Shown piece after piece: positions 13,596 to 33,272 of a stretch of 33,524 nucleotides of DNA. Within the stretch, counting starts at the first letter, position 1, and every line of letters begins with the position of its first letter. Location: NCBI GenBank assembly GCA_016342715.1, contig JAEINW010000029.1, forward strand, positions 1 through 33,524, read 5' to 3'. A program made the translations under genes and the position numbers. The notes under the pieces are model-generated. The model made no database searches and was not told the origin of the DNA. It saw nothing but the letters and a program-made list of their open reading frames with translations. The stretch is from Salinivirgaceae bacterium (lineage in GTDB: Bacteria; Bacteroidota; Bacteroidia; Bacteroidales; SZUA-534).

Positions 13596-15017
13596 GTGGT
13601 ATTTAGTAGTAGTCTTTTTCTTTTTCTTTTTCTCCCCATATTTTTAATCATATATTTCATTGTTCCTAAAAAGTTTAAAAATTATACAATACTTATTGCA
13701 AGTATATTCTTTTACGCTTGGGGGGCACCAAAATTTATTATTCTTGTTTTATCATCACTTAGCATTAACTTTTTTATAGTTAAACTTTTATCAAAAACCA
13801 CCTCTTATAAGAAATCACTGACAGTATTGTCTATTCTAATAAACATAGGTCTTTTAATTTATTTTAAGTACGCAAATTTCTTTATTGAAAATGTTCAGAC
13901 TATACTAAAAAGCTTCAATATTGAGTCGTTTAGTTGGGTAAATGTTGCGCTACCAATTGGTATATCATTTTTCACCTTTCAATCGCTTACTTATACAATC
14001 GATGTTTATAGAAAAGTACATGCTCCTTTGCAAAAATTAAGTGATTACTTACTTTATATTCTTATGTTTCCTCAATTAATTGCAGGACCCATTGTTCGAT
14101 TCAACACCATTGCTGATGATATATTAGACCGAAAAAAAAACGAAACATCGGAAAAAAGACTTTATGGGATATATCGATTTACAATTGGACTTGCAAAAAA
14201 AATATTAATTGCCAATGTGTTGGGAGAACAGGTAGATGCTATCTACGCATTACCCAATATCGAAATAAATACTATGCTATCATGGGTTGCTATAATAGCC
14301 TACTCATTTCAAATATATTTTGATTTTTCTGGTTATTCCGATATGGCCATTGGGCTTGGGAAATTAATGGGTTTTAACTTTCCTGAAAACTTCAATAATC
14401 CTTACGCATCTCAAAGCATAACTGAATTTTGGCGTCGTTGGCACATTACTTTAGGTGAATGGATGAAAGATTATTTGTATATCCCGCTTGGAGGAAACCG
14501 GGTAAACTCAAAAAACCGACTGTATTTAAACTTGCTTATCGTATTTTTTCTTTCGGGGCTGTGGCATGGTGCAAGCTGGAACTTTGTAATCTGGGGATTG
14601 TGGCATGGTATATTTTTAATTTTTGATCGCTTATTTTTAGTTAAAACTTTATCGAAAATTGGAAAGTACCCTCGTGTAATATTTAATTACATAGTTGTTT
14701 TGGTCGGCTGGGTATTTTTTAGAATTGAGGAGTTTAGTCAGTCTTTATTTTATATTAGAACAATGTTCATTTGTAAAAAAACTGATAATGAATTTCCCAC
14801 CAGTTCCCAATTTTGGGTTACGCTTATTTTTGCTGCTTTAGTCTCCTTTATAACCCTCTCTAAAATCGGATTAAAAACAGAGCAAATAGTTTATTATAAA
14901 AAACTAAATAAATATCAGCACATTATATTCTTTTTAATAAGTATTTTAATGCTCGCTTTAAGCGTTTCATATTTAAGTGGTTCCGGGTTTAATCCATTTA
15001 TATATTTCAGGTTTTAA
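13596..15017 (+). CDS. MBOAT-family O-acyltransferase (AlgI-like)
   Basis: A 473-residue polytopic membrane acyltransferase. AlgI-type signatures are present: FPQLIAGPIVRF near 158-169, YFDFSGYSDMAIG at 241-253, FWRRWHI with H283, IPLGGNR near 296-302 and the catalytic histidine H324 in GLWHGASW, closing with FNPFIYFRF. These enzymes take an acyl (usually acetyl) group across the inner membrane to a periplasmic partner that modifies a polysaccharide. The start is GTG; it is chosen because VFSSSLFLFLFLP aligns with the usual MBOAT N-terminus and a promoter ends just upstream. The next gene, 11 bases on, encodes the expected AlgJ/X-like partner. The acceptor glycan is unknown. Confidence 0.9.
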   Translation: MVFSSSLFLFLFLPIFLIIYFIVPKKFKNYTILIASIFFYAWGAPKFIILVLSSLSINFFIVKLLSKTTSYKKSLTVLSILINIGLLIYFKYANFFIENVQTILKSFNIESFSWVNVALPIGISFFTFQSLTYTIDVYRKVHAPLQKLSDYLLYILMFPQLIAGPIVRFNTIADDILDRKKNETSEKRLYGIYRFTIGLAKKILIANVLGEQVDAIYALPNIEINTMLSWVAIIAYSFQIYFDFSGYSDMAIGLGKLMGFNFPENFNNPYASQSITEFWRRWHITLGEWMKDYLYIPLGGNRVNSKNRLYLNLLIVFFLSGLWHGASWNFVIWGLWHGIFLIFDRLFLVKTLSKIGKYPRVIFNYIVVLVGWVFFRIEEFSQSLFYIRTMFICKKTDNEFPTSSQFWVTLIFAALVSFITLSKIGLKTEQIVYYKKLNKYQHIIFFLISILMLALSVSYLSGSGFNPFIYFRF

Positions 15018-15028
15018 TTGCAGAATCA

Positions 15029-16159
15029 ATGAAAAAATTGTATACAACTATTCTTATTTTATTTGTTATTGTTATTAGCATACCATTTCTGCAAATGCAT
15101 ACAGAAATAATTAATTTAAAACCACTTAAAGGTGCTATAACAAAAACAAAAAAACCAACATTCCACTTTAATAATTGGTTAAATATTAAGTATCAGGATT
15201 CCGTTGAAAACTATGTAAAAGACCATATTGGTTGTTATTCACTTTTTATAAGAATCAGAAATCAAATATCCTATTCCATTTTTAATGAAGCTAAGGCCAG
15301 AGATGTTGTTATAGGTATTAATAATTATTTATTTGAAAAAAATTATATAGATGCCTATAATGGAGATGATTTTATAGGTGAAGATTCAATTAAGGCACGG
15401 GTCAAAAGAATTGTTTCAATTGACAATTATTTAAAATCTAAAAACAAAACCTTAATAATTTGTTTTGCTGCTGGTAAGGGATCATATTACCCTGATTATT
15501 TTCCAGATAAGGATAAAAAAAAAGCCACTGATAGAACGAATTATAAACAATATGTTAAAGCATTAAGCAAAACTAATGTTAATTTACTTGATTTAAATAG
15601 ATGGTTTCTTCAAATGAAGGATACATCTAAGTTTATTTTATTTCCTAAATACTCGATTCACTGGAGTTATTACGGAGAATTTTTAGTGACAGATAGCTTG
15701 GTACGATACGTCGAACATTTACGAAATGAAGATTTACCAAACATTGAGCTAAAAAGCTATGAAATATGGGATAAACCCAAACCCACAGATCAGGATATAG
15801 TTGAAGGCATGAACCTTCTATTTAGATATAAAGAAAAACCTTTTTGCTACCCAAAATACATTTGGCAGAATAGTGTAGGGAAAACAAAACCCAAAACCAT
15901 TGTGGTTTCTGATAGTTTTTATTGGCAAATTTTTAATAACCAAACAAACACCAAGGCCTTTAGTCTAGGTGGATTTTGGTATTACAATTATAAAATATAT
16001 CCAGACAGCTACAAGAAGCCAACAAGAGTTTATCATAAAAACATAGTTGAAGAAATTGAAAACAATGATATTTTTATTATTATGGCAACCGAGGCAAATC
16101 TAAAATCTTTGGGCTGGGGATTTCTTGATAATGACATTTTTAAGGAATTAGATAATTAA
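15029..16159 (+). CDS. AlgJ/AlgX-like SGNH O-acetyltransferase partner
   Basis: A 376-residue periplasmic protein with an N-terminal hydrophobic anchor (about residues 4-21). It has the ALGX/AlgJ pattern: V-I-G-I-N-N-Y-L-F-E-K near 94-104, the Y-Y-P-D-Y segment near 153-157, the catalytic histidine in SIHWSYYG (H211) and the nucleophile serine in VVSDSFYW (S296). Such proteins receive an acetyl group from the MBOAT partner and transfer it to a surface polysaccharide. It lies 11 bases after the MBOAT gene. The usual D-x-H-W motif reads S-I-H-W here, so the aspartate of the dyad may be elsewhere or replaced. Confidence 0.8.
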   Translation: MKKLYTTILILFVIVISIPFLQMHTEIINLKPLKGAITKTKKPTFHFNNWLNIKYQDSVENYVKDHIGCYSLFIRIRNQISYSIFNEAKARDVVIGINNYLFEKNYIDAYNGDDFIGEDSIKARVKRIVSIDNYLKSKNKTLIICFAAGKGSYYPDYFPDKDKKKATDRTNYKQYVKALSKTNVNLLDLNRWFLQMKDTSKFILFPKYSIHWSYYGEFLVTDSLVRYVEHLRNEDLPNIELKSYEIWDKPKPTDQDIVEGMNLLFRYKEKPFCYPKYIWQNSVGKTKPKTIVVSDSFYWQIFNNQTNTKAFSLGGFWYYNYKIYPDSYKKPTRVYHKNIVEEIENNDIFIIMATEANLKSLGWGFLDNDIFKELDN

Positions 16160-16385: not shown

Positions 16386-17687
16386 ATGGCTATAAAAGTA
16401 TATGTTGGAATGAGTGCCGATATGATCCATCCCGGACATTTAAATATTATAAAAGAAGCAAGTAAATTAGGCGAGGTAATTATTGGATTATTGACTGATA
16501 AAGCAATAGCCAGTTACAAAAGACTTCCGGCTTTAAAGTACGAACAAAGAAAATTAATTATTGAGAGTATCAGAGGTGTTTCAGAAGTTGTTGCGCAGAA
16601 TGAATTAGATTATTCTCCAAATTTACTAAAATTAAAACCCGACTATGTTGTTCATGGTGACGACTGGAAAAAAGGACCTCAACAACAAACTCGACAAAAA
16701 GTAATTGATACTCTAAAAGAATGGGGAGGACAGCTTCATGAAGTTCCTTACACTCAAGGAATATCATCTACCCAACTTAACCAAAGCATAAAAGAGATTG
16801 GTACAACACCTGAAATAAGAATGGATAGACTTCGCCGACTTATCGAATCAAAACCAGTTGTTAGGGTAATGGAAGCTCACAATGGACTTACGGGTTTAAT
16901 TGTTGAGAATATTACGGCGGAACAAGATGGCAGAACAAAAGAATTTGATGCCATGTGGTTAAGCAGTCTTACTGATTCTACTGCAAAAGGAAAACCTGAT
17001 ATTGAAGCTGTAGATGTAACTTCAAGACTTCATGGATTAAACGATATATTGGAAGTAACTACAAAACCAATTATATATGATGGTGATACTGGTGGCATTC
17101 CTGAACATTTTGTATTTACTGTAAAAAAACTAGAACGTTTAGGCGTATCTGCTATTATTATTGAAGATAAAACTGGTTTAAAAAAGAATTCCCTTTTTGG
17201 AACTGATGTAGCTCAGACTCAAGATACTATTGAAAAATTTTGCCATAAAATTAGTGAAGGTAAAAAAGCTCAGGTCACAAAGAGCTTTATGATTATTGCT
17301 CGTATCGAGAGTTTAATCCTTCAGCAAGGTATTGATGATGCTATTACACGTGCAAAAGCCTATATTGAAGCCGGAGCCGATGGTGTAATGATTCACAGTA
17401 AAGAAAAAAATGGCGAAGAAATAATGGAGTTCTGTAGAAGATACAATAAACTTGAAAAGCGAGTTCCTTTAGTTGCTGTTCCTTCAAGTTATAATCACAT
17501 GTATGAAGAGCAATTAAGAGAAGCCGGTATTAATGTAATAATATACGCCAACCATTTATTAAGAAGTGCATATCCTGCTATGGTTGAAGTGGCAAAATCA
17601 ATTCTTATACACGAACGTTCCTTTGAAGCTAACGATCAGTGCATGTCGATTAAAGAAATTCTAAACTTAATTCCAGGAACAAAATAA
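16386..17687 (+). CDS. aepX: Phosphoenolpyruvate mutase fused to an N-terminal cytidylyltransferase
   Basis: A 433-residue two-domain cytoplasmic enzyme. Residues about 1-135 are a TagD/GCT-type nucleotidyltransferase: [14 protein letters not shown] with the HxGH motif at 15-18, and TQGISST at 123-129, the counterpart of R-T-x-G-I-S-T. Residues about 145-433 are PEP mutase, with DGDTGG at 232-237, the catalytic [10 protein letters not shown] loop at 260-269 and a C-terminal [11 protein letters not shown]. The mutase rearranges phosphoenolpyruvate to phosphonopyruvate, making the C-P bond. The cytidylyltransferase probably activates the final phosphonate as a CMP ester. The ATG at 16386 is preferred over a TTG at 16326 because the first strand begins here and a -7 box lies between. 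The gene overlaps the decarboxylase gene by one base (TAATG). Confidence 0.92.
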
Positions 17688-18814
17688 TGATTAGCCCAAA
17701 AACTTTTTATACTTGGCTTGGTGAAAGCCAAGTAGATTTTTTTAGCGGTGTACCTGATTCTTTATTGAAGGATATTTGCGCATACATTACAGATAATGCG
17801 CCTAAGAAAAACCATATTATTGCAGCAAACGAAGGAAACTCTATTGCTTTAGCTGCTGGCTATCATATGGCCACCAATAAAATACCCTTAGTTTATATGC
17901 AAAATTCGGGTATTGGAAATGCTATAAACCCTCTTCTTTCACTTACCGATAAACAGGTTTATAATATTCCTTTATTACTTATGATAGGTTGGAGAGGAGA
18001 ACCTGGTAAAAAAGATGAACCTCAGCATGTGAAACAAGGGGAAGTTACTTTGGGTTTGCTAGATGCAATGAATATACCTTATTTAGTAATAAGTGAGGAT
18101 GAACAAAAAGCTTCTGAACAAATTAAGCTAGCTATTGCTCAAATAAAAGAAACAAATGAACCTTTTGCCATTGTAATAAAAAAAGGAACATTTGAAAAAT
18201 ATTCTCTCAAAGAAAGCATAAAGAATAATTACGAACTTTCCCGTGAAGATTCTATCAAACAAATAGTTAATCAACTACATGGTGATGAAATTATAGTTTC
18301 AACCACTGGCAAAACTTCACGCGAATTATTTGAGTGTAGAGCAAGTTTGAAACAAGCTCATAATTCCGATTTTCTTACTGTTGGATGCATGGGACATGCC
18401 AGTCAAATTGCTTTAGGAATTGCACTAAACAAACCTAACAAAAAAGTAATTTGCATTGATGGAGACGGAGCATTACTTATGCATATGGGAGGTTTAGCTA
18501 TTACGGGAAGTATGGCTCCAAATAATTTTACACATATAGTAATAAATAATGGAGCACACGAATCGGTTGGTGGACAACCTACGGTAGGTTTTGATATTGA
18601 TGTGCCAACATTAGCAAAAGCAAATAATTACAAATTTGCCACATCAGTTACAAATGCTAAAGAACTTGAGCAGGCACTTCAAAATATTACTGAAGATTCA
18701 TGTCCTAGTTTAATTGAGATAAAAGTTAGTATTGGTTCTAGAGACGATTTAGGACGTCCAACAATAAAACCAGTAGATAACAAGTTAGATTTTATGAAAA
18801 ATTTAAAATCGTAA
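17687..18814 (+). CDS. aepY: Phosphonopyruvate decarboxylase
   Basis: A 375-residue thiamine-diphosphate enzyme that decarboxylates phosphonopyruvate to phosphonoacetaldehyde, the step that pulls the unfavourable PEP mutase equilibrium forward. The N-terminal pyrimidine-binding half includes FFSGVPDSLLKD near 18-29 and the catalytic glutamate E49 in ANEGN. The ThDP-binding motif starts at GDG (259-261) and ends at NNG (287-289), with HESVGGQPT following. Length and motifs fit the Ppd/AepY family throughout. The gene overlaps both neighbours by one base (TAATG each side), so the three phosphonate genes are translationally coupled. Confidence 0.93.
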   Translation: MISPKTFYTWLGESQVDFFSGVPDSLLKDICAYITDNAPKKNHIIAANEGNSIALAAGYHMATNKIPLVYMQNSGIGNAINPLLSLTDKQVYNIPLLLMIGWRGEPGKKDEPQHVKQGEVTLGLLDAMNIPYLVISEDEQKASEQIKLAIAQIKETNEPFAIVIKKGTFEKYSLKESIKNNYELSREDSIKQIVNQLHGDEIIVSTTGKTSRELFECRASLKQAHNSDFLTVGCMGHASQIALGIALNKPNKKVICIDGDGALLMHMGGLAITGSMAPNNFTHIVINNGAHESVGGQPTVGFDIDVPTLAKANNYKFATSVTNAKELEQALQNITEDSCPSLIEIKVSIGSRDDLGRPTIKPVDNKLDFMKNLKS

Positions 18815-19932
18815 TGCAACAAAAGGTTTTTCGTGAAAATCAGCTAGATAATCTTAAGTCTTTAATAAAAAATATAGACTCGGAAAAAATATTTTTGGTT
18901 CGAGCCAATAAATCTTATCATACATCGGGAGCAGAGTTATTTATTAATCAATTAGTAAATAACTCAGCTCTTACTTCTTTTTATGATTTTGATCCCAATC
19001 CACAATTAGAAGATCTTAAAAAAGGAATTTCCATATTCCAAAAGGGTAATTTTGATTTAATATTATGTATTGGTGGTGGAAGTGTTTTGGATATGGCCAA
19101 GCTAATTAGTGTCTTTGCTCATCAGAATAACAATTTTGAAGACCTAGTGATTGGCAAAGCTAAATTAGAAAATACTAAAACACCAATAGTAGCCATTCCA
19201 ACCACAGCAGGTACAGGAGCTGAAGCAACTCATTTTGCAGTACTTTATATAAACAAAAAAAAGTACTCAATTGGTCATTCTGCAATTTTACCTGACATTG
19301 TTTATATTTCCGCTGATTTTTCCTTATCAGCAAATGCGTACTTAACTGCATGTACAGGTTTAGATGCATTTTGTCAGGCTGTAGAATCACTTTGGAGTGT
19401 AAATACCAATGCAGAATCTGAAATTTTTGCCTTAGAAGCTATTGAAATGATTTGGCACAATCTGCAAAAAGCAGTGCAAGAAAATGATAAAGCTTCCAAA
19501 TCCATAATGCAAGAAGCTTCTTTTTTAGCTGGAAAAGCAATCAATATCACAAAAACAACGGCACCTCATGCACTTTCATATGCTTTCACAAGTTATTATA
19601 ATATTCCTCATGGACATGCAGTTGCATTAAGCCTGCCTTTCTTTCTGGAATATAACTATGGGTTAACTAATATTGATTGTACAGATAAAAGTGACCCGCA
19701 AAAAGTAAAACAGAGAATTGATAAGCTATTGAATATTTTAAACATAAACATTAATGATTCACAAAATGTATTAGTGAAGTTCTTTGAATCATTAGGAGTT
19801 AATATAAATATATCTGAAATCATCGAAAATTTTGACCCAAATATTATTATAGATAATGTTAACTTTGAACGATTAAGCAACAACCCACGATTAGTTTCAA
19901 AAGAAGACATTAGCAACTTTTTAGGTCATTAA
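18814..19932 (+). CDS. Iron-type alcohol dehydrogenase, probable phosphonoacetaldehyde reductase
   Basis: A 372-residue group III alcohol dehydrogenase. The nucleotide-binding GGGSVLDMAK sits at 87-96 and TTAGTGAEATH near 130-140. Metal ligands are D184 (TGLDAFCQ), H252 (APHALSY) and H266 (IPHGHAV); the position of the usual second ligand histidine (D+4) is Q188. Its tight coupling to aepX and aepY indicates reduction of phosphonoacetaldehyde to 2-hydroxyethylphosphonate (HEP), as for PhpC-type reductases. No aminotransferase of the AepZ type is encoded in the window, so HEP rather than 2-aminoethylphosphonate is the predicted product. The substrate comes from context, not motif. Confidence 0.82.
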   Translation: MQQKVFRENQLDNLKSLIKNIDSEKIFLVRANKSYHTSGAELFINQLVNNSALTSFYDFDPNPQLEDLKKGISIFQKGNFDLILCIGGGSVLDMAKLISVFAHQNNNFEDLVIGKAKLENTKTPIVAIPTTAGTGAEATHFAVLYINKKKYSIGHSAILPDIVYISADFSLSANAYLTACTGLDAFCQAVESLWSVNTNAESEIFALEAIEMIWHNLQKAVQENDKASKSIMQEASFLAGKAINITKTTAPHALSYAFTSYYNIPHGHAVALSLPFFLEYNYGLTNIDCTDKSDPQKVKQRIDKLLNILNININDSQNVLVKFFESLGVNINISEIIENFDPNIIIDNVNFERLSNNPRLVSKEDISNFLGH

Positions 19933-19957
19933 TTGTAGCATAACTTAATACAAAATT

Positions 19958-20001
19958 TTATAAGAAAAGAGATGTACTTTAAAAATGAAATTATAAGAAA
20001 A
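19958..20001 (+). repeat. Short direct repeat before the TagB/TagF-like gene
   Basis: TTATAAGAAAA occurs at 19958-19968 and again at 19991-20001, 33 bases apart (about three helical turns), in the 117-base gap before the transferase gene. A small inverted repeat (TAGTAT 20004-20009, ATACTA 20019-20024) follows. A regulatory role is possible but AT-rich chance is not excluded. Confidence 0.25.
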
Positions 20002-20049
20002 TATAGTATCTCATCTCAATACTAAAATATCATTATTAAAAAATAACTA

Positions 20050-21309
20050 ATGACATTAATTATTCTTTACATCGACCCAGCATCAACCAGTGCTCTTTTA
20101 TATATTATTATTGCACTTGCTGCAACTCTTACATTTGCTTTACGTGGCTTTTTTTATAAAATTAAGAACTTGATTTTAGGAAAAGGCTTTATAAATAGTA
20201 ATGATTTTAAAAATACAGATATTATTTTTTATTCTGAAGGAAAACAATATTGGTCAGTATTTTTACCAGTAATAAAGGCTTTAGAAAATAAGAAAGTTCC
20301 ATGCGCATATTTAACATCCGATAAAGATGATCCAGGATTGAAATATCAGGCTGAAAATTATGCAAGTAAGTTTATTGGAAACCTAACCATGACCTCAGTA
20401 TATTTAAATAAATTGAAAGCTAAATTTGTGGGCATGACTACTCCTCAATTAGATGTTATGATGATACGACGTTCTAAAAACGTACAACATTATGGTCATA
20501 TAGTGCACGCTCCTATTGATGTTTTTACTTATAGAAAGTTTGCTTTTGATTATTTTGATTCTGTTTTTTGTTCAGGCCCTCACCAAATAGAAGGTATACA
20601 AAAACTAGAAGAAAAACGTGGAACTGATAAAAAAGCTTTACTAGAAACCGGATTAACTTACTACGACATAATGAAGGATGAAGTTGAAGCCTTTGGAAAA
20701 CCTGAGAAAAAAAATCCGGTGGTTTTAGTCGCTCCAACATGGAAAGAATACTCTATTTTGAACAGATTTGGAGCAAAATTCTTTGAGAGTTTGCTTGAAA
20801 ACAGCACCTACGATATTATTTTACGCCCGCACCCTCAAAGCTATGTTAGTTTTCCTGAATTAATTGGTGGAATTGAAGAACAATTTAAGGATGAACCTCG
20901 CATTTCATTTGATAGAAATCCATTGGGTACAGAAAGTATGGCAAAAGCCGATTTAATGATTGGAGACTTATCTGGTGTATTCTGGGATTTTGCATTCTTA
21001 TATTCGAAGCCATTATTATTATTAAAAACTGAATTTGACAGCATTGAAGGTTTTGAAGGTAGCGAATTAGATTACGAAATGTGGGAAATGCGTGAACGAG
21101 GACGCTTGGGTAAAATATTTGATGAAAATGATGTTGAAGGTATAAGCGATATTGTAAATAATTTATTGCAAAACCCTCCAAGTATGCAACTAGAACAATT
21201 AAAAAATGAATCGGTATTTAATTTTGGGAATGCTGGAGAAACTGCTGCCAGTCAGATAATTGACATTGTTCAAAAACTTAATAAAAATTCAGAGAATCAG
21301 CTTAATTAA
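20050..21309 (+). CDS. TagB/TagF-like CDP-glycerol glycerophosphotransferase-family protein
   Basis: A 419-residue protein with an N-terminal membrane anchor (about 5-33) and a GT-B-like glyphos-transferase domain. Family motifs are ETGLTYYD near 199-206, VLVAPTWKE at 225-233, ILRPHPQ at 257-263 and the long MAKADLMIGDLSGVFWDFAF near 297-316. Members transfer a phospho-polyol from a CDP-activated donor to a glycan or lipid, best known in teichoic acid synthesis. The anchor begins LYIDPASTS, a variant of the Y-x-D-P-G-T-G-S start found on many envelope-glycan proteins. Placed after the phosphonate genes it is the obvious candidate to use CMP-HEP as donor; that is inference. Confidence 0.82.
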   Translation: MTLIILYIDPASTSALLYIIIALAATLTFALRGFFYKIKNLILGKGFINSNDFKNTDIIFYSEGKQYWSVFLPVIKALENKKVPCAYLTSDKDDPGLKYQAENYASKFIGNLTMTSVYLNKLKAKFVGMTTPQLDVMMIRRSKNVQHYGHIVHAPIDVFTYRKFAFDYFDSVFCSGPHQIEGIQKLEEKRGTDKKALLETGLTYYDIMKDEVEAFGKPEKKNPVVLVAPTWKEYSILNRFGAKFFESLLENSTYDIILRPHPQSYVSFPELIGGIEEQFKDEPRISFDRNPLGTESMAKADLMIGDLSGVFWDFAFLYSKPLLLLKTEFDSIEGFEGSELDYEMWEMRERGRLGKIFDENDVEGISDIVNNLLQNPPSMQLEQLKNESVFNFGNAGETAASQIIDIVQKLNKNSENQLN

Positions 21310-21388
21310 TTGAATACTTGAAAAGCTATATTTTCCTTATTTTCCTGTAGATAAATTCACAGTCTCAATAATGTTTTAGGTAAAAAAA

Positions 21389-24300
21389 ATGAATATTTTC
21401 GAAATAATAATCTCCCCATTTATTTTTATAATAAAGGAAACTTTTTTGCTTAGTTATCAACTAACAGGTAATTACGGAATATCAATTATACTATTAAGTT
21501 TTTTTATTTCACTGCTTCTTTTGCCCATATTTATTCTAATTGAAAAGGCAAAAAAGAAAAATGATTCATTAAAGCTTAAAATGAAGCCTTTAATTGATGA
21601 AATTAAAAGATGCTACAAAGGTCAAGAAAGGTTTTACTACCTTAAAACTCTTAATAGACAATACAATTACAGTCCCTTTAAAGCATTAATACCAATATTA
21701 AGCTTATTACTTCAAATACCATTTTTCATTGCTGCTTATCAATTTTTAGAAAACTATGAACCATTAGCTGGTGTTAGTTTCTTATTTATTAAAAACTTAA
21801 ATGCTCCTGATGCATTATTTGGAGCTATCAATATTTTACCCATAGCAATGACTGTGGTAAATTTACTCACAGCATATTTCTATACTAGACATGGAAATAC
21901 TTCAGAACGTAAACAAATGCTTGTAATAGCAGGAGTTTTTCTTGTATTGCTATTTAACTTACCTTCTGGGCTGGTGCTGTATTGGGCCATGAATAATGTT
22001 TTTAGCTTTTTTAGGTTATTTATTACCAATAGAGAAGTGTTTAGGAAGAAAAAAGCAATCACATCTGAAGAAGGTAGGTCATATATAAAACTGAAACTTC
22101 AGATTCGGAATATTTTCCCAACTTTAAAAAAAATATTTATTGCAACAACTATTGTTGCGTCATTAAGCCAACTAAACTGGAGTTTTCAGAATAATTTTGA
22201 TCAAATAATATTACGATTATTTGGTTCTGTTTTATTTGGATTTATTATTACAATTGCTTTTGGTGTTTTTTCATTTACATACAAAAAATACAAACCTCAA
22301 TTACAAGACATTAAAATAAAACCTTCATATTTTTACTCTTTACTATTTTTTGCGCTATATTTTTGGGCAGCTGGTGAATTTTATTTTCTAAATAAGAATT
22401 TTATTCTATTAAAAATATCATTAGTGTTTCTTGTATGTTTTCAAATAATAGGTATTGTTTACATTCTACGAAATATTTCAACAAATCAAAACATACTATA
22501 TCAAATAGCATCATTTGCATTATTGTTTTCATTTATTTGTCAATTATTTTTAGGATACGTATATATTTCGCATAATGAAATTAATTTAACACTATCTAAT
22601 ATTAAAATGTCAGTAACTGATAGTTCACTGTCTGAATTAATTTTTTGCGGTATGCTATTTTCATTTTTCACCATATTTTTTTATTCAAAAGAGCATAGTA
22701 TTAAATTCTCAATACCCGATGAATCAAATTGGTTTATTTATTTACTTTCTATTTTTTATATTTCTGGCTTATTATATTTCTGGCATCCTTTGTTAATCTT
22801 CTCTTCTCATCCCCAAGCATTTGACTTTCCTGCTATAAATATTTTACAAAATAACTTAAATCTATTCATCATTTTTAATACAATTGCACTAATTTTTTAT
22901 TTATTATCACCTTTAAAAATTAAAAAAACAATATTACTTTCTATTCTATGTTTAGTTATAATTGTTTTCGTCAATTCTTCAATAATACCTTTAGATTTAG
23001 GATCTCTGCAAGAAACTAGATTTTCAGAACATGAAAAACTTGCTATTTCCCCAGGTTATTTCATTTTAGAAGCGATATTCATTTTAGCTTTATTTTACAC
23101 TGTATTATGGTTTTTAAAAAAGAAACGAAATGTCATTATTAAATATTTCTTAATCATTCTTAATTTGTTTCTAATACTTCAAAGTTTATATTCATCAATA
23201 CAAACAGGTAATTTCTTTAATTCAGGTAAAGAGATAACAAATACAAAATCTAATTTAATCCAAGGGGAATTTTCCTTTTCGAAGAATCATAAGAATGTTG
23301 TTTTTTATTTGGCTGATGGAGTTCAAGGCTGGTTTATTAAACAAATAATGGAGGAAAACCCTGATCTTAAAGAGACTTTCTCTGGTTTTACATGGTATCC
23401 AAACACCTTATCAATATCAAACTTCACTCATTCCTCAGTGCCCTCATTAATGGGAGGTTTTAATAATTCGGTTGCAAATATGAATGCTGACACTGAAAGA
23501 AATATCGAAGAAAAAGTAACTGATGCATCTATTAAATTTTATAACAAAATCAAATCGAAAGGATTTACTTTCACTAGTACTTATATGCATCATTCTAAAA
23601 TTGATAAAAGTGAATTTGATATTTATATTCCAGGATGGTATAGTAATTGGGAAAGATGGTCGCATAAATTAAATTTAGGCCCATTAAATGAAATATGGTA
23701 CTCGCGTCTTACTGAAAATGCTATATTTTATAGTGTCCCAATATTTCTTAAACCAAAAATATATAATAACAAAGAATGGCTACAATTCTATAAAAAATAT
23801 TTTTCTTCAATTGATTCCTTGGCTACCAAACAAAAAAGTCCAAGTTCATTTAAAAAATATAATTTTATAAGATTACTTCCATTTATATCTAATACTAAAA
23901 CAGATAAGCCTAGCTTTATTTATATTCATGATCAGGCTGCACATAACCCTTGGAATATTGTAAATAATAAAGGTAAAATGATTCAGAACGTATCTCCATA
24001 TGAAAATAACAAATGGATTATTGAACAATTGGGTAAGTGGATTGAATGGATGAAAGAAAATGATGTTTACAACAATACTCGAATTGTAGTTGTATCTGAC
24101 CATGGTCCAAGTTGGGGGCAATATGATGGCGAGTTTGATCTCAATTCTCCTGTTAATTGGGATAAAGATGATCCAAAAAAGATATCTCATGATAGATATT
24201 GGAGATTAAATGCTCTATTAATGGAAAAAGACTATGATAGCCAAGGAGAATTAATTGAAGACTGGCGTTTAATGAGTAATGCAGATGCCCCTGCTTTAGT

Positions 24301-24469
24301 TTTTGATGAAAATAGTCCAGCTAAAAATGATTCAACAAGTAGAGTATTAAACACATATTGGACGTTTTGGAAAAGCCATATTATTGAGCAAACAGAAATG
24401 GAAGTATTTAAACAATTTGAAGTTAAAGATAATGTGTTCGACCTAAAAAACTGGAAAAGAATTAAATAA
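21389..24469 (+). CDS. YidC/Oxa1-like domain fused to an alkaline-phosphatase/sulfatase-superfamily transferase
   Basis: A 1026-residue inner-membrane protein with three regions. Residues 1-215 are YidC/Oxa1-like: GNYGISIILLS (28-37), the KMKPLIDEIKRCYKG cytoplasmic hairpin (64-78), ALIPILSLLLQIPFFIA (99-115) and NLPSGLVLYWAMNN (190-203). Residues about 245-605 hold some eight to ten further helices. Residues about 635-1026 are a periplasmic alkaline-phosphatase-superfamily domain: metal aspartate D643 (YLADG), probable nucleophile T680 in NFTHSSVPSLMGG, H852 (AAHNPW) and D904-H905 (VVSDHG). The last part resembles LtaS/OpgB/EptA-type phospho(glycerol/ethanolamine) transferases. The YidC-groove arginine is Ser41. 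It lies 79 bases after the TagB-like gene and 7 bases before a paralogue. A role in transferring a phosphonate or phosphate group outside the membrane is inferred. Confidence 0.82.
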   Translation: MNIFEIIISPFIFIIKETFLLSYQLTGNYGISIILLSFFISLLLLPIFILIEKAKKKNDSLKLKMKPLIDEIKRCYKGQERFYYLKTLNRQYNYSPFKALIPILSLLLQIPFFIAAYQFLENYEPLAGVSFLFIKNLNAPDALFGAINILPIAMTVVNLLTAYFYTRHGNTSERKQMLVIAGVFLVLLFNLPSGLVLYWAMNNVFSFFRLFITNREVFRKKKAITSEEGRSYIKLKLQIRNIFPTLKKIFIATTIVASLSQLNWSFQNNFDQIILRLFGSVLFGFIITIAFGVFSFTYKKYKPQLQDIKIKPSYFYSLLFFALYFWAAGEFYFLNKNFILLKISLVFLVCFQIIGIVYILRNISTNQNILYQIASFALLFSFICQLFLGYVYISHNEINLTLSNIKMSVTDSSLSELIFCGMLFSFFTIFFYSKEHSIKFSIPDESNWFIYLLSIFYISGLLYFWHPLLIFSSHPQAFDFPAINILQNNLNLFIIFNTIALIFYLLSPLKIKKTILLSILCLVIIVFVNSSIIPLDLGSLQETRFSEHEKLAISPGYFILEAIFILALFYTVLWFLKKKRNVIIKYFLIILNLFLILQSLYSSIQTGNFFNSGKEITNTKSNLIQGEFSFSKNHKNVVFYLADGVQGWFIKQIMEENPDLKETFSGFTWYPNTLSISNFTHSSVPSLMGGFNNSVANMNADTERNIEEKVTDASIKFYNKIKSKGFTFTSTYMHHSKIDKSEFDIYIPGWYSNWERWSHKLNLGPLNEIWYSRLTENAIFYSVPIFLKPKIYNNKEWLQFYKKYFSSIDSLATKQKSPSSFKKYNFIRLLPFISNTKTDKPSFIYIHDQAAHNPWNIVNNKGKMIQNVSPYENNKWIIEQLGKWIEWMKENDVYNNTRIVVVSDHGPSWGQYDGEFDLNSPVNWDKDDPKKISHDRYWRLNALLMEKDYDSQGELIEDWRLMSNADAPALVFDENSPAKNDSTSRVLNTYWTFWKSHIIEQTEMEVFKQFEVKDNVFDLKNWKRIK

Positions 24470-24476
24470 TTATTTT

Positions 24477-26891
24477 ATGAATCTATTAGATATTATATTA
24501 TCACCCTTTCTGTTTATTATAAAGCAAACTTTTTTACTAAGTTACAATCTAACTGGAAATTATGGGATATCTATTATTCTATTAAGCTTCGCTATTTCTT
24601 TACTTCTATTACCTATTTTTATCTTAATTGAAAAAGCAAAAAAGAAGGATGATACAGTAAAATTTAGAATGCAACCTTTGCTTGATGAAATAAAAAGGTG
24701 CTATAAAGGACAAGAAAGATATTATTACATTCGTACTCTAAACAGACAATTTAGTTATAGTCCACTTCGGGCTTTAATTCCCATTTTAAGTTTGCTATTA
24801 CAGATACCTTTCTTTATTGCAGCATATCAATTCCTAGAAAGCTACGAACCTTTAGCAGGTATTGGTTTCTGGTTTATTAAAGACCTCAATGCACCGGATG
24901 CCCTATTTGGTGCAATAAATATCTTACCAATAGCCATGACATTGGTAAATTTACTTACTGCATATTTTTATACCCGAAATGGAAACACTTCAGAACGAAA
25001 ACAAATGCTAGTTGTAGCAGGGATATTTCTCATTTTACTATTTAAATTACCTGCGGGTCTTGTTCTTTATTGGACCATGAATAACGTGTTCAGTTTCTTT
25101 AGATTATTTATTACCAATAGAGAAGTTTTCAAAAAGGAAAAAACTAGAAAAAATATTCTCTCAATTGATATTAAAATATATAAAACTCGAATGCTAGCAA
25201 TTCGTTCCAAAATAATTAAAACATTTGCTTTTTTATCACTTATCGCCATTTTAAGTCAATTAAATTGGGCCTTCCAACATAGTTTTTCTGATATTAGTTA
25301 CAGGGTATTTATTGCCATCACTGTAAGTTTTATAATAACATTATTTATTGCAATTCTATGTATTTTTCACAAAATAGAAACAATAAATTTTAGAAAAAAC
25401 AGTATAAAAGAATTACTTATAATAGTTTGGTTAGCATTTAAACCTACTTTCATTTTTATTCTTACACTTGCAATTCTTTCTCAAATTAACTGGGCTTTAA
25501 AATTTAATTTCGATGATATATATCTTCGAATACTATTATCTTTCATTGCAAGCATTTTCACTACACTAATTTGTGCTGCAATAGTATATTTATATCAAAA
25601 TAAAATATTTCCAGTAAATAATAAAGTAAAATATACCTTATCATCATTTGGTATTTTATTTAAAATTAGTTTTATTATACTACTTTCAATGGCCATAATA
25701 TCTCAAATTAATTGGTCTATTATTCATAATTTTAACAGTATTATCCTGCGAATATCAATTGCCTTTATTGGTAGCTGGATACTAATTATATTTATAGCAA
25801 ATACTATTCATGCTATTTTGAGAGATCAAAATATTACTGCAATTGATTTTAGAAATTACATAACAAAGCCTAACCAATCGTTATTTATAAATTCTATTTT
25901 TATTGCTGGCCTAACCTTAATTTTGCTTGTTTATAATACTTTAAATACAAACGCTAACCACTTCATATGCAAATTATTAATAGCACTGCTTATTGGAGGA
26001 ATTGGCAGTATATTATTGTCGCCTATTTCATATATACTAAAAAAATGGGGAGTTTCAATTGTAAATTTGAAGGTTCGTCATGAGGTTTTCTTTTCATTAT
26101 TTTTTTTAGGAATATATTTTCACCTTTCATCAAAACTATATTATAGTGAACCGAATATTAATCTAAGTATTTTCGGTTTATTTTCAATAATAATGACCCA
26201 GTTTATAGCTTTGGCATATTTTATACGTTCCCGAAAATATAGTAATAATTCAATCTATCACATTGTCTCTTTTTCATTAGTTTTATTATTCATTTTCCAA
26301 TTAATTAATTCTTGGGTTTACTTTAAAGGTTCAGAATTGAGTTTTAGTATTTTTAATACTGAATGGTTAATATCAAATAGTCAAATAACTGATATTTCAC
26401 TCTTAGGAATTCTTTTTTCAACATTTTTACTTCCATTTTACTTTAAAGAATCGAAACTACTAGTACCAAAAACAAAACCCAATTGGATAATATATGCTTT
26501 ATGTGTGTTTTATTTATCTGGATTTATATTCTTATGGAATCCTTTAACTATATATTCAACTTTTCCTGAAACTTTCGAATTTCCTGCAATTAAAATATTA
26601 AGGAATAACCTACCATTATTTATTTCAACCATAGCGATTTTATCTATTTTTTACTTGATTTTACCCAAAAAATTTAAAAGAATTTGGCTAATTACTATAC
26701 TAACTTTAACGGTTCTTTCTTTTATTCATAATTCAATAATTCCAATACATGTAGGTACTTTGCAAGAAAATAAATTTGTTGAACAAGATAACTTATCAGC
26801 TTCAATACTATTATATTTACTTGAAGGAATAGCTATGATAAGTTTTTTCCTGGGCATAAAAAATATACGAAACAAATTATTTTTGGTTTAG
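24477..26891 (+). CDS. Second YidC-like fusion paralogue, N-terminal part up to a frame break
   Basis: An 804-codon frame that parallels the preceding protein from its first residue: the 1-215 YidC-like domain is nearly identical in pattern (ISIILLSFAISLLLLPI, LPAGLVLYWTMNN), again with Ser41 at the groove-arginine position. Three copies plus a degenerate fourth of a membrane module carrying S-Q-x-N-W follow (residues about 244-522), where the first paralogue has one copy. After a shared membrane region the frame ends abruptly at ...KNIRNKLFLV, just where the first paralogue enters its last helix. Homology resumes at once in the -1 frame. The real gene therefore most likely spans 24477-28165 (1229 residues if one base is restored). 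Confidence 0.75.
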   Translation: MNLLDIILSPFLFIIKQTFLLSYNLTGNYGISIILLSFAISLLLLPIFILIEKAKKKDDTVKFRMQPLLDEIKRCYKGQERYYYIRTLNRQFSYSPLRALIPILSLLLQIPFFIAAYQFLESYEPLAGIGFWFIKDLNAPDALFGAINILPIAMTLVNLLTAYFYTRNGNTSERKQMLVVAGIFLILLFKLPAGLVLYWTMNNVFSFFRLFITNREVFKKEKTRKNILSIDIKIYKTRMLAIRSKIIKTFAFLSLIAILSQLNWAFQHSFSDISYRVFIAITVSFIITLFIAILCIFHKIETINFRKNSIKELLIIVWLAFKPTFIFILTLAILSQINWALKFNFDDIYLRILLSFIASIFTTLICAAIVYLYQNKIFPVNNKVKYTLSSFGILFKISFIILLSMAIISQINWSIIHNFNSIILRISIAFIGSWILIIFIANTIHAILRDQNITAIDFRNYITKPNQSLFINSIFIAGLTLILLVYNTLNTNANHFICKLLIALLIGGIGSILLSPISYILKKWGVSIVNLKVRHEVFFSLFFLGIYFHLSSKLYYSEPNINLSIFGLFSIIMTQFIALAYFIRSRKYSNNSIYHIVSFSLVLLFIFQLINSWVYFKGSELSFSIFNTEWLISNSQITDISLLGILFSTFLLPFYFKESKLLVPKTKPNWIIYALCVFYLSGFIFLWNPLTIYSTFPETFEFPAIKILRNNLPLFISTIAILSIFYLILPKKFKRIWLITILTLTVLSFIHNSIIPIHVGTLQENKFVEQDNLSASILLYLLEGIAMISFFLGIKNIRNKLFLV
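25206..26042 (+). repeat. Tandem protein-level repeat of a roughly 75-residue membrane module
   Basis: The N of the S-Q-(L/I)-N-W motif falls at residues 263, 338 and 412, and a degenerate counterpart (LVYNT) at 487: spacings of 75, 74 and 75 residues, or about 225 bases. Each unit has a helix ending in the motif, a short N-F-x-x-I-x-x-R-I link and a second helix. DNA copies are diverged, so this is an old in-frame expansion. Confidence 0.75.
26858..26864 (+). other. Frame-break point: A-AAA-AAT in -1 slippery phase
   Basis: The reading frame of the N-terminal part is ATA AAA AAT, so the seven bases A AAA AAT have the X-XXY-YYZ phase of a -1 frameshift site. A -1 slip gives ...IKKYTKQIIFGLVLLN, which continues the homology to the first paralogue; the zero frame stops at TAG 26889-26891. 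No Shine-Dalgarno-like stimulator upstream or strong stem-loop downstream is evident, so a lost A in the A6 run or an assembly error is at least as likely as programmed recoding. Confidence 0.6.
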
Positions 26892-27040
26892 TACTATTAA
26901 ATATAATTCTTATTGCAACAAGTTTATATGAATCAATAAATACTGGAACTTTCTTAAAAAAGGCCAAAATTTCAACTGATATACCAAACTCCATTTCATT
27001 TTCAAAAGACAAAGAAAACATTGTTTTTATTATTTCGGAC

Positions 27041-28165
27041 ATGTTTCACGGATATTCAATGAATGATATTATTAAAGAAAAGCCAGAAATAAAAAATGAA
27101 TTGAATGGCTTTGTCTGGTATCCTAATACTCTGTCGGTTTCAACTATAACAAGCTCTTCTATATCTGCTATTCTTGGAGGACACAATTACACACCTGACA
27201 AATTAAATTTAGACTCAACCAGAACAATTAGAGAAAAAATTACAGAAGTAACCGAGAATTTTAAAAACAAAATTCAAGATAAAGGATATCATTTTACTAG
27301 TACTTCTATGATTTATTCCACAATTGATAAAAATTTATATGATACTTACCTTCCCAAATGGCATAAAAACTGGGATCAGTGGAATAAAAAATTAAACATT
27401 GGATATTCATCGGAAATTGGGTACAAAATACTTTGGGAAAATGCACTATTTTATAGCGCTCCTCTATTTGTTAAGGCTAAAATATATAATAAAGGAAATT
27501 GGTTTCATGGCAACATACCAATAAACGATAATACAAATAAAGCAAAGCCATATAATTTTTTACGATTATTACCTTTAATTTCAAACACTAATAATGATAA
27601 ACCCAATTTTATATATATCCATTCCATGGCATCTCATCACCCATGGGATTTAATTGATGATAAAGGTAATATGCATTCTAATGTTTCTCCTTATGAAAAC
27701 AATAAGTGGGTACTTAATACCTTAATTAAATGGATTGATTGGATGAAAGAAAATGATGTTTACGATAATACCAAAATTGTGATTTTGTCAGATCATGGAC
27801 CACACTGGAGTTTTCATGAAGGAGGAATAGATATTGATGTACCACTAATAAAAAACTCATCATTAAAAATTTGGGAAGGCTTAGCCTTATGCATGAATCC
27901 TTTAATGCTTGTAAAAGATTTTAATTCATTGGATACACTTAAACTTGATTGGCGGTTTATGAGTAACGCTGATGCATATGGAATTGTATTTAATGAAAAT
28001 GACATAACAAAAAAACCACCAATAAAAGACAGAATTCTAATTTCAACTCATCCTAAATGGGTTACAAAAATTGGAGAAGAATATAAATTTCAAGTTTTAT
28101 ATTCGTACTCAGTAAAAAATAATTATTTTGATATGAATAATTGGACCCCAATATTTGAAAAATAA
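27041..28165 (+). CDS. Second YidC-like fusion paralogue, C-terminal transferase domain after the frame break
   Basis: This 374-codon frame aligns with the periplasmic alkaline-phosphatase-superfamily domain of the first paralogue: W-Y-P-N-T-L-S-V-S, then TITSSSISAILGG for the nucleophile loop, ASHHPWD for the substrate/metal histidine, LSDHGPHWS for the metal Asp-His pair, and the shared MSNADA near the end. Same-frame homology reaches back to about 26861 without a start codon. The metal aspartate codon (27038-27040) is immediately upstream of this ATG, so a protein begun at 27041 would lack it. It is therefore the tail of the preceding frame, not a separate gene. All later catalytic positions look intact, which argues for a recent break or a recoded gene. 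Confidence 0.75.
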   Translation: MFHGYSMNDIIKEKPEIKNELNGFVWYPNTLSVSTITSSSISAILGGHNYTPDKLNLDSTRTIREKITEVTENFKNKIQDKGYHFTSTSMIYSTIDKNLYDTYLPKWHKNWDQWNKKLNIGYSSEIGYKILWENALFYSAPLFVKAKIYNKGNWFHGNIPINDNTNKAKPYNFLRLLPLISNTNNDKPNFIYIHSMASHHPWDLIDDKGNMHSNVSPYENNKWVLNTLIKWIDWMKENDVYDNTKIVILSDHGPHWSFHEGGIDIDVPLIKNSSLKIWEGLALCMNPLMLVKDFNSLDTLKLDWRFMSNADAYGIVFNENDITKKPPIKDRILISTHPKWVTKIGEEYKFQVLYSYSVKNNYFDMNNWTPIFEK

Positions 28166-28199
28166 AAGGAATGTCTGAAAACAGACATTCCTTTTATTT
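28160..28199. terminator. Strong intrinsic terminator closing the phosphonate/glycan block
   Basis: A perfect 18-base stem (28160-28177 with 28182-28199) and an AAAA loop; the GC-containing core is GGAATGTCTG/CAGACATTCC and the 3' arm ends in CTTTTATTT. It overlaps the stop codon of the last gene. Both arms end in A/T runs, so it could act in both directions. Confidence 0.88.
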
Positions 28200-30351: not shown

Positions 30352-31854
30352 CTAATTAAAATCAATGCGTAAATCGTCCACATATATCTCTTTTTTAGTG
30401 GGATTATAAATGTATATTTTAATTAAATCTGCATTTTTTTTATCTCTAGGAATCTTAAAATTGTATTCAATTTTTTTCCATTCGTTTTCCAGGGAACATA
30501 AATCCTTTATAAAAACCCCACCCCAATAATTATCGATAAATTCACCTTTTACTTCGCACACCAATTTTGCTTCTTCATTTTTAGCTTTCTGGTAAATATA
30601 TGCTTTCACTGATATTGTATTAAATAATGAATCTGGTATGCTTTTAACTGAATGTTCCAGAGTTAAACTAAAATCATTGCCCATTCCTGTTTTTGAGGAA
30701 TGGTTTCCAGAAAATGATTTTTCACTTGAAATCGTATTCATTTGTCCCCAATTTTCAGAAATCTCACAATCGTGGAAAAAATGTGTTTTTAATTTTAATT
30801 TCTCATATTCAACTTTAACATATTGCTTTGGGTAAAATTTCATTATTGAATCTGCTACATTTTTTGCAATTTTCTTTCTACCTTCTTCATTGTAATGTTC
30901 GGTAGTCCAGTCCTGATCAATAAATAATTCATTTCTAATATTATTTAAATTATCAACAACAATGACACCCTTACTTGAATATTTATCAACTAATAGTTTT
31001 TTATTCTGTTTAATTATATCAACAAGTTCACTGCCAACCAAATTCTGAGCCTTTTCTAAATTTTCAGCCAATAAATTAAAAACTAAATTCCAGTTTCGTT
31101 CTTTTGATAATTCAACTATTTCATCAAAATCTAATATTCGTTGATTAGTTGTTGTATCAATCTGAAAAGCGTATGTCTTAATATAGTGACAGGCTAATTC
31201 TGTTGCATTATAATCCATTATTCCATTTTCATTCACTACTCCTGCCTGCGCCATTGCATTATCCCATTCAATTACATTTTGGTAATGTAAATGATCAGGT
31301 AAAATAAGTGGGTCATTTTTCCACTTCCTTTTAAACTGCCTCTCTCTTTCCTTATTGTCTTTAATATCATAGCCTTTAAATGCTAAAACAAATCTATTAA
31401 AAAAGGCAGGTCGCGATTTCAGTAATACAATGCTTTTCTGTAAAGGAGTCTCTAAATCAGAATAAATCCAATTTGCGTTAAATGATCGAAGATTTAAGGT
31501 AACAATAACTGTTTTGACATTTGATGTTAAAGGAATTTGTTTTAACAATTCTTTATATATTCCTGAATGTAAGGCTCCTTTAGATATTGTTCCTAATTTT
31601 TTTTCTGGATAATATTCAGCAATAAACTCACTGATCGGTCGCTTATCATTATCATCTGACCTAAACGAAAAATTTGAAGATTCACCAATATATATTATAT
31701 CAGAACTATCTTGAACAGCTCTAACAAGGTTAATTATATTGGAATGCTTTTGCAAATCATCTTCGAAAAACCATAATTTATAAATTATCCCAGTTGATAT
31801 AACAAGTACACAAAACAGAATTAATTTTAAAAATACTTTTGTAATTGGGTTCAT
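30352..31854 (-). CDS. SGNH-fold acyltransferase partner with C-terminal jelly-roll domain
   Basis: With the ATG at 31854 this is a 500-residue protein; a longer frame from 31944 would overlap the MBOAT gene by 83 bases, whereas this start leaves a 5-base gap and puts a normal membrane anchor (about residues 8-27) at the N-terminus. An SGNH-like domain follows, with IYIGESSNFS near 55-63 (nucleophile S59 or S60) and the late D-W-T-T-E-H-Y-N-E-E-G block (H320). Residues about 370-500 look like a beta-sandwich of CBM type, ending in IYVDDLRIDFN. By context it accepts acyl groups from the upstream MBOAT protein and modifies a periplasmic or surface glycan. It is not obviously the same subfamily as the AlgJ-like protein at 15029. 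Confidence 0.72.
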   Translation of the reverse strand: MNPITKVFLKLILFCVLVISTGIIYKLWFFEDDLQKHSNIINLVRAVQDSSDIIYIGESSNFSFRSDDNDKRPISEFIAEYYPEKKLGTISKGALHSGIYKELLKQIPLTSNVKTVIVTLNLRSFNANWIYSDLETPLQKSIVLLKSRPAFFNRFVLAFKGYDIKDNKERERQFKRKWKNDPLILPDHLHYQNVIEWDNAMAQAGVVNENGIMDYNATELACHYIKTYAFQIDTTTNQRILDFDEIVELSKERNWNLVFNLLAENLEKAQNLVGSELVDIIKQNKKLLVDKYSSKGVIVVDNLNNIRNELFIDQDWTTEHYNEEGRKKIAKNVADSIMKFYPKQYVKVEYEKLKLKTHFFHDCEISENWGQMNTISSEKSFSGNHSSKTGMGNDFSLTLEHSVKSIPDSLFNTISVKAYIYQKAKNEEAKLVCEVKGEFIDNYWGGVFIKDLCSLENEWKKIEYNFKIPRDKKNADLIKIYIYNPTKKEIYVDDLRIDFN

Positions 31855-31859
31855 ATGTA

Positions 31860-33272
31860 TTAAAATTGAAAATAAATAAATTGGAAGTCTTCTACTCCTG
31901 AAAAAGAAATAATTGAAAAAGTAAGCATTATATATATTCCCCATCGAATTAAAAAATGCCTATTATTACACCAATTATCAAACCTATTATTATATAAAAT
32001 AATATCGAAAACAATAAACCCCAATAATAGTATAATTACTGTATAATCAACATTTAATATACTTTCAGAATTCCAATTCGATATCAATAAATTAAATATA
32101 TTAAATGCTTGATCGAGACTTTGACTTCTAAAAAACACCCAAATAAGAGTTACAAAGAAAAATGTTTTTAAGGCCAGTAAAATATGATTAAATGAAAAAT
32201 CTTTATTGTCTGTTTTTATTGAGAATGCTTTGTTAAAAATCTTTTCAAACAAATATATTATTCCAAAAAATGCACCCCAAAAAATAAATGTCCAGTTAGC
32301 ACCATGCCAAAAACCACTAATAGTAAATACTATCATTATATTAATTATCCATCGGTATTTTTTCGTTCTATTTCCACCTAATGGTAAATAAACATAATCT
32401 CGAAACCAAGTTGATAATGATATATGCCAGCGTTGCCAAAATTCACCAATATTTTTAGCAAGATATGGAGCCTTAAAATTATCCATTAAATGAATTCCCA
32501 TTATTCTCGCTGTTCCAATTGCAATTGTTGAATAACCAAAAAAGTCGCAATAAATTTGGAATGAATACATAAACATTCCAAATAATATATCTTTGGAACT
32601 ATATATATTTGGGTTATCATAAATTGCATCAACATATACTGATACATTATCAGCAATAACCATTTTCGCAAATAGACCAAATAATATCAACCTTAGACCA
32701 TTTACTAAATTATCATAAGTAAACTTATGGTGCATTTTTAATTGTGGTGTTAACCTTGAGAATCTTTCGATGGGACCAGCAACGAGTTGAGGAAAGAACG
32801 ACACATATAGTGCAAAATAACCTAAATGACGCTCTGCCTTTTGCCGACCATGGAATACGTCAATAGTATAACTTAATGTTTGGAAGGTGTAAAATGAAAT
32901 TCCAACAGGTAATAGCACCTTTAATTCGGGGAAACTGTAAGCAACATTTAAATGTTCAAATAAAACATTTCCGTTACTTGTGAAAAAATTAAAATACTTA
33001 AACGAAAATAATAACCCCAAATTTGTGAACAAACTTAATAGTAAAAAGATACTTTTCCCTTTCCATTGTTGCCTTTTTTCAAGTTGAATTCCTGCAAAAT
33101 AATCAATAAGTGTTGATGCAATTATTAATACTACATACTCCACCTTCCAACACATATAAAAATAGTAACTTGCACCTAACAGCAAGATCCATCTATATTT
33201 TGGTTTAATTAAAAAATAACAAATAATTACAATTGGGAAAAAAATCAGAAATTGGATGGTATTAAACAGCAT
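31860..33272 (-). CDS. MBOAT-family O-acyltransferase (AlgI-like), second copy
   Basis: A 470-residue polytopic membrane acyltransferase. Signatures are FFPQLVAGPIERFSRL near 159-174, QIYCDFFGYSTIAIG near 239-253, FWQRWHISL with H283, LPLGGNR near 296-302 and the catalytic H323 in GFWHGANW; it ends in FQFIYFQF as is usual for the family. It opens a three-gene minus-strand unit with the SGNH partner and the GH5-like lipoprotein. It is a distant paralogue of the MBOAT protein at 13596. The acyl group and acceptor are unknown. Confidence 0.9.
   Translation of the reverse strand: MLFNTIQFLIFFPIVIICYFLIKPKYRWILLLGASYYFYMCWKVEYVVLIIASTLIDYFAGIQLEKRQQWKGKSIFLLLSLFTNLGLLFSFKYFNFFTSNGNVLFEHLNVAYSFPELKVLLPVGISFYTFQTLSYTIDVFHGRQKAERHLGYFALYVSFFPQLVAGPIERFSRLTPQLKMHHKFTYDNLVNGLRLILFGLFAKMVIADNVSVYVDAIYDNPNIYSSKDILFGMFMYSFQIYCDFFGYSTIAIGTARIMGIHLMDNFKAPYLAKNIGEFWQRWHISLSTWFRDYVYLPLGGNRTKKYRWIINIMIVFTISGFWHGANWTFIFWGAFFGIIYLFEKIFNKAFSIKTDNKDFSFNHILLALKTFFFVTLIWVFFRSQSLDQAFNIFNLLISNWNSESILNVDYTVIILLLGFIVFDIILYNNRFDNWCNNRHFLIRWGIYIMLTFSIISFSGVEDFQFIYFQF

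Follow-up and report, generated by a model that had tools for sequence, protein, structure and literature searches.

Nucleotidyl activation of phosphonates ahead of transfer to the cell surface has been described, as have fusions of phosphoenolpyruvate (PEP) mutase (PepM) to a cytidylyltransferase (CyT) domain and the three-enzyme route to 2-hydroxyethylphosphonate (HEP) (PMC6697681, excerpts). The same excerpts state that the N-terminal CyT domain of Fom1 converts HEP to its cytidine monophosphate (CMP) derivative, CMP-HEP, that 23.6% of PEP mutases bear a PF01467 domain and that the enzymes assayed there, of the PF12804 class, prefer 2-aminoethylphosphonate (AEP); the abstract calls the route by which activated phosphonates reach cell surfaces enigmatic. 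In marine dissolved organic phosphorus of high molecular weight, HEP is named as one of the most abundant phosphonates (PMC8931226, excerpts). Here we analyse a gene module at positions 16386–28165 of a 33,524-nucleotide stretch of DNA from a Salinivirgaceae bacterium (GenBank assembly GCA_016342715.1, contig JAEINW010000029.1). This stretch, hereafter the window, corresponds to contig G000:C3 of genome G000, whose assembly comprises 5.5 Mb in 358 contigs.

On balance, we lean towards reading the locus as a cell-surface phosphonylation module, in which CMP-HEP would be made, HEP would be passed to a carrier, and a membrane fusion protein would take it across and transfer it. The features of the module are as follows.

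16386–17687, + strand: pepM, PEP mutase with N-terminal CyT domain (CTP_transf_like and PEP_mutase domains)
17687–18814, + strand: ppd, phosphonopyruvate decarboxylase (TIGR03297, 510 bits, cutoff 313)
18814–19932, + strand: iron-type alcohol dehydrogenase (Fe-ADH), presumed phosphonoacetaldehyde reductase (PF00465, 127 bits; PF25137)
20050–21309, + strand: TagB/F-like transferase (tagF) with one N-terminal hydrophobic helix, residues 13–31 (PF04464; hydropathy)
21389–24469, + strand: fusion 1, intact, 1026 amino acids, with YidC-like, multi-transmembrane (TM) and alkaline phosphatase (AP)-superfamily domains (60KD_IMP, 87 bits; Sulfatase, 25.6 bits, cutoff 25)
21389–22063, + strand: YidC/Oxa1-like domain of fusion 1, residues 1–225 (60KD_IMP at residues 29–215; Ser41)
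23216–24466, + strand: AP-superfamily domain of fusion 1, residues 610–1026 (Sulfatase hidden Markov model at 654–915; invariant residues; fold)
24477–26891, + strand: upstream open reading frame (ORF) of fusion 2, with YidC-like domain, TM region and three SQxNW hairpin units
26858–28165, + strand: downstream part of fusion 2 in another frame, an AP-superfamily domain with active-site residues kept
28160–28199, + strand: terminator-like stem-loop, 18 pairs

As a preliminary description of this DNA had stated, all module genes lie on one strand and end at what would be a terminator. Since the whole scan returned fewer terminator-like sites than were expected from shuffles (4 versus 6.9), what speaks for this one is the length of its stem.

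HEP synthesis, CMP activation and the TagB/F-like transferase

Within the pepM-ppd-FeADH trio, adjacent genes overlap by one base (TAATG), and the pepM start at ATG 16386 agrees with the starts of aligned relatives. PepM lies above its family cutoff (TIGR02320, 414 bits, cutoff 320), as does Ppd, and all 9 aligned rows have the PepM motif EDKxxxxxNS. These results support the preliminary proposal that three coupled genes would make HEP from PEP, as in the early fosfomycin route. The first gene was also said to carry its own cytidylyltransferase domain, and the CTP_transf_like domain (PF01467) is indeed fused N-terminally to PepM; its closest PDB chain is 5x3d (E 8.7e-55), with 83 of 134 residues identical (62%). 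We take 5x3d to be the CyT domain of Fom1. Strong homology thus lends good support to the prediction that the module makes HEP and activates it with CMP, and this half would be known chemistry, assigned here through its relatives.

The enzyme that follows the trio had been placed in the CDP-glycerol-phosphotransferase family (CDP, cytidine diphosphate), which agrees with its match to PF04464 (Glyphos_transf; 35 bits, cutoff 22) in the C-terminal half. It is 22% identical to a PF04464 member that scores 280 bits, and hhalign matches the two over 109 columns. The donors of LicD and TagF-type enzymes are CDP-bound, which fits CMP-HEP as the donor here.

The YidC-like/AP-superfamily fusion

The YidC-like domain of the fusion exceeds the cutoffs of both 60KD_IMP (87 bits, cutoff 35) and TIGR03592 (96 bits, cutoff 84). 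Mean pairwise identity over 55 pairs from 11 sequences is 71.6% in this domain, 32.4% in the TM region and 39.8% in the AP domain. At the groove position (residue 41), however, Ser is found in 13 of 13 fusion copies, whereas Lys occupies it in 20 of 20 canonical YidCs (from 21 loci, one of which gave no match). Because the groove Lys is replaced by Ser, we do not class the domain as an insertase. A separate canonical YidC, with Lys at the groove position as read by eye, is encoded elsewhere in the window genome.

These data bear on a reading in which the YidC-like domain acts as a dedicated insertase or folding chaperone, for instance for the variable TM region of the fusion or the anchor of the TagF-like protein, and the phosphonate carrier crosses by other means. 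The TIGR03592 score and the far better conservation of this domain relative to the TM and AP parts, which fits a constant partner, give this reading some weight. The uniform Ser in the groove, the canonical YidC in the same genome and the fact that every fusion copy has its own YidC-like domain in cis count against it, and we regard it as a real but lesser possibility. Under the surface phosphonylation reading, the domain may provide a crossing path, since lipid scrambling by E. coli YidC has been reported in vitro (PMC10491306, excerpts). A stronger version, which we consider doubtful, would make the fusion a one-protein flip-and-transfer machine, with the Oxa1-fold domain passing HEP-lipid in cis to an AP-superfamily phosphonyltransferase.

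Every one of 12 AP-domain rows has D643, T680, H852, D904 and H905. With residue roles as we presume them, this set is of the threonine type of EptA and LtaS, not the formylglycine type of sulfatases. The AP domain modelled alone (pLDDT, a per-residue confidence score, 58.6; pTM, a global one, 0.68) places the superfamily, not the subfamily: fold Z scores are 16.8 for a phosphonate monoester hydrolase, up to 16.9 for sulfatases, 15.6 for LtaP and 15.4 for LtaS and MCR-1, and gaps of up to about 1 between Z scores are treated as ties. Sulfatases also lead a PDB profile search, in which LtaS appears at E 0.009.

It could be argued from this that the AP domain acts as a hydrolase, or that the module yields free secreted phosphonate and nothing is placed on the surface, given that the fold lies slightly nearer to phosphonate monoester hydrolases and sulfatases than to LtaP, LtaS or MCR-1, albeit by differences that are read as ties. 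Yet in sulfatases and phosphonate monoester hydrolases the nucleophile derives from Cys or Ser, whereas the position is Thr in all 12 rows. The module contains no gene for tailoring a free phosphonate, and we consider this explanation improbable, even though CMP-HEP occurs on the route to a secreted antibiotic (PMC6697681, excerpts).

The preliminary description had counted two large YidC-like/AP fusions. This holds fully for fusion 1; fusion 2, which starts 7 bases after it, is divided into two ORFs by a frameshift. The ORF at 24477–26891 stops, and the AP part lies in another frame that is open from about 26822, has an ATG at 27041 and runs to 28165. Each part aligns colinearly with fusion 1, and the AP half keeps the active-site residues. 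The frames overlap at 26822–26891, including an A AAA AAT run at 26858–26864; a programmed frameshift was considered and rejected, as no stable structure follows the run (z 0.35). Intact tandem fusion copies occur in relatives (L039, L122), and the split may stem from a lesion or from an error in assembly, or be a rare variant. We also observed an SQxNW membrane-hairpin unit three times in the upstream ORF of fusion 2 (window 25254–25737, residues 260–420); each of 13 other fusion copies has one such pattern or none. The second tandem fusion of genome G199 (L039, 14873–18292) has an additional C-terminal stretch of ~130 residues.

Distribution, gene replacement and neighbourhoods

The preliminary description had treated confinement to this genome as telling against it. 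We found the module in 13 genomes: that of the window, a Salinivirgaceae metagenome-assembled genome (MAG; L005), an uncultured Bacteroidetes MAG (G367), and G090, G199, G347, G053, G296, G049, G386, G782, G783 and G787. Recurrence of the gene set in this many genomes points to more than chance. The pepM(CyT)-ppd-FeADH trio lies directly 5′ of tagF at 12 of 13 tagF loci, and the fusion lies directly 3′ at all 12 loci whose contig continues. In the co-occurrence search that the description had proposed, run over 393 genomes of the order, a TagF-like gene is present in 9 and the fusion in 8, all 8 being among those 9; in the ninth, the contig ends inside tagF. pepM is more widespread, being found in 18 of these genomes, at an identity of at least 78% in the 9 tagF genomes and of 55–73% in 9 non-tagF genomes and once more in the window genome. 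The TagF-like gene is carried by 4 of 20 genomes of the window's family and by 2 of 11 of the family of G347.

At the level of the phylum, 395 genomes yielded no further full fusion. A TM+AP profile matched 24 of them, the best match outside the window genome reaching 35.5 bits over part of the AP region only. Other phyla were reached only through a pattern scan of genome contigs, a search that picks up close relatives and that gave 2 loci, and no plasmid-borne copies were detected in 72,556 records.

Evidence for a working link comes from gene replacement. The module pepM of G782 is 68% identical to that of the window and is sister to the other pepM of the window genome (support 100/99). That pepM was exchanged while the module stayed together speaks for a functional association, not shared descent alone. 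In G787, the module-linked pepM, which is not among the rows of the pepM tree, is 69% identical to that of the window. A first pepM tree gathered the ten fusion-linked rows on one side, but with low support (44/52); a second, leaving out two long-branched rows (L110 and L111), grouped 11 of 12 fusion-linked rows (96/93), with G782 elsewhere. The module of G787 lies on two contigs (L133 6338–13470 and L123), each with a fusion, in the orders pepM-ppd-FeADH-fusion and tagF-fusion. Here the fusion follows the trio directly, so its link to the trio holds also without tagF.

Fusion copy number differs between genomes, with several copies in G000, G199, G367, G053, G782, G783 and G787 and one in L005, G090, G347 and G296 (in the stretch read or the genome searched). 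Multiple copies would suit a module in which the fusion polymerises HEP into a teichoic-acid-like poly-HEP, one tandem fusion serving as the primer enzyme and another as the polymerase. With a single hydroxyl and a single phosphonate, HEP could be strung together in this way, and TagF-like and LtaS/LtaP-like folds meet in one module. The genomes with one fusion speak against this, we saw no sequence feature that separates single transfer from polymerisation, and we rate polymer formation as improbable. Under the surface phosphonylation reading, the additional copies could act on other acceptors.

We compared the module with ten other pepM loci, nine of which have a readable neighbourhood (L102–L104 and L106–L111; L105 is a 3,179-base contig). 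At eight of the nine, pepM is accompanied by ppd and Fe-ADH, and at one (L110) by ppd and an aminotransferase; among these loci without the module, HEP-type routes thus outnumber AEP-type ones. None of the eight sister trios has a fusion, and four have LicD beside them (L104, L107, L108, L111). The window genome's second trio (L102, on G000:C138) lies in a polysaccharide cluster and is followed by the 280-bit Glyphos_transf gene, while a Capsule_synth protein adjoins the trio at L103. At L106 and L109, no transferase was identified nearby in the part of the neighbours that was scanned. We infer that HEP is transferred to the surface, and this is strengthened by the threonine-type AP site together with the sister trios beside LicD or a strong Glyphos_transf match. 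As a separate observation, the PepM at L111 (8880–10886) has an extra N-terminal stretch of ~240 residues with, by eye, the look of a nucleotidyltransferase; triple fusions of this kind are described in PMC6697681 (excerpts).

Upstream of the module, the window contains two further genes, which may be optional partners.

13596–15017, + strand: MBOAT acyltransferase gene (PF03062, 116 bits)
15029–16159, + strand: AlgX-like SGNH gene (PF16822, 34 bits)

MBOAT and AlgX-like genes stand near module genes in three genomes (window 13596–16159, L037 12696–15235, L041 9872–17106), and in G367 and G053 they adjoin a fusion on a second contig. The window genome has 6 MBOAT matches, so these neighbours may be there by chance. 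A Dlt-like (D-alanylation) reading of the MBOAT gene was rejected: it scores 169 bits against the DltB model (cutoff 375), and the best DltA-model match of the genome, on another contig, reaches 274 bits (cutoff 560). Outside the module, on the − strand (window 30352–33272), lie a second MBOAT gene and a neighbour that by eye has an AlgX/SGNH look.

Proposed mechanism and comparison with known systems

Taken together, the data suggest the following scheme. Strong homology predicts that PepM, Ppd and Fe-ADH would convert PEP to HEP and that the CyT domain of PepM would convert HEP to CMP-HEP in the cytosol. By analogy with its family, the membrane-anchored TagB/F-like enzyme would then move HEP from CMP-HEP to a membrane carrier at the cytosolic face. 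The fusion may take the HEP carrier to the outer face, its YidC-like domain, which lacks the groove charge, serving as crossing path or dock. Finally, judging from its active-site residues, the AP domain could form a threonine intermediate and from it pass the phosphonyl group to a glycan or lipid of the envelope, in the manner in which EptA- and LtaS-type enzymes handle phosphate esters. The carrier, the crossing and the acceptor are steps that we infer.

Several observations weigh against this scheme. With 175 bits, the Fe-ADH stays below the 424-bit threshold of TIGR03405, the phosphonate-specific model, so that its substrate, and with it the name phosphonoacetaldehyde reductase, comes from context only. 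The TagF-like protein fits PF04464 in its C-terminal half only, and a search of the PDB with its family profile gave no match up to E 0.1. In fold comparison, sulfatases and phosphonate hydrolases tie with transferases as matches to the AP domain, and the AlphaFold2 model of the full-length fusion was poor (pLDDT 51) and was not taken to fold search. In G386, the contig stops inside tagF and the assembly has no fusion; in G787, tagF is kept apart from the trio, and the ~700 bases before it lack Fe-ADH. Conservation of the module does not extend to any carrier or acceptor gene. Moreover, simulated insertion-weakened mutants, one of them of Bacillus halodurans YidC, scramble less (PMC10491306, excerpts), and the lost groove charge may by the same token argue against a crossing role. 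If that charge also matters for scrambling, the YidC-like domain may serve only as a dock, and we therefore hold the crossing role to be doubtful.

Beyond CMP-HEP, the module supplies a defined set of candidate genes for the later steps. Should its YidC-like domain move lipid, it would be a natural test of the lipid scrambling reported for insertases, because the fold is here tied to a transferase; in a flip-and-transfer fusion, if real, a fold known from insertases would have become a dedicated step in building envelope glycans or lipids. The preliminary description knew of no system with all of these parts. Our literature searches did not contradict this for the whole set, but the HEP/CMP-HEP half is known. 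The YidC-like/AP fusion was not described in the literature searched, which leaves subscription journals and domain-architecture databases outside its scope. As far as these searches go, the transfer half would be a new architecture in phosphonyl tailoring.

With the early fosfomycin pathway, whose enzymes are Fom1, Fom2 and FomC, the module shares three enzyme classes and the CyT-PepM fusion, but it lacks the later fosfomycin genes and has membrane transferases coupled instead. Bacterial phosphonyl-tailoring (Pnt) loci, with a nucleotidyltransferase and a LicD-type transferase (PMC6697681, excerpts), likewise combine nucleotidyl activation of a phosphonate with surface-glycan transferases, whereas the module has, in place of LicD, a divergent TagF-like protein and the YidC-like/AP fusion. 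Likeness to TagB and TagF (PF04464) is confined to the C-terminal catalytic half; the N-terminal half of the module protein is unmatched and bears its own membrane helix. The fusion resembles LtaS/LtaP and EptA/MCR in its AP-superfamily fold, its Thr at the nucleophile place and its Asp and His residues of presumed metal-binding type, with Asp, not Glu, at what we take to be the first metal position of LtaS/EptA-type enzymes, and differs from them in its N-terminal YidC-like domain and longer TM region. Finally, it matches YidC/Oxa1 insertases above the 60KD_IMP and TIGR03592 cutoffs, but has Ser for the groove Lys, carries an attached enzyme and is present in addition to the canonical YidC.

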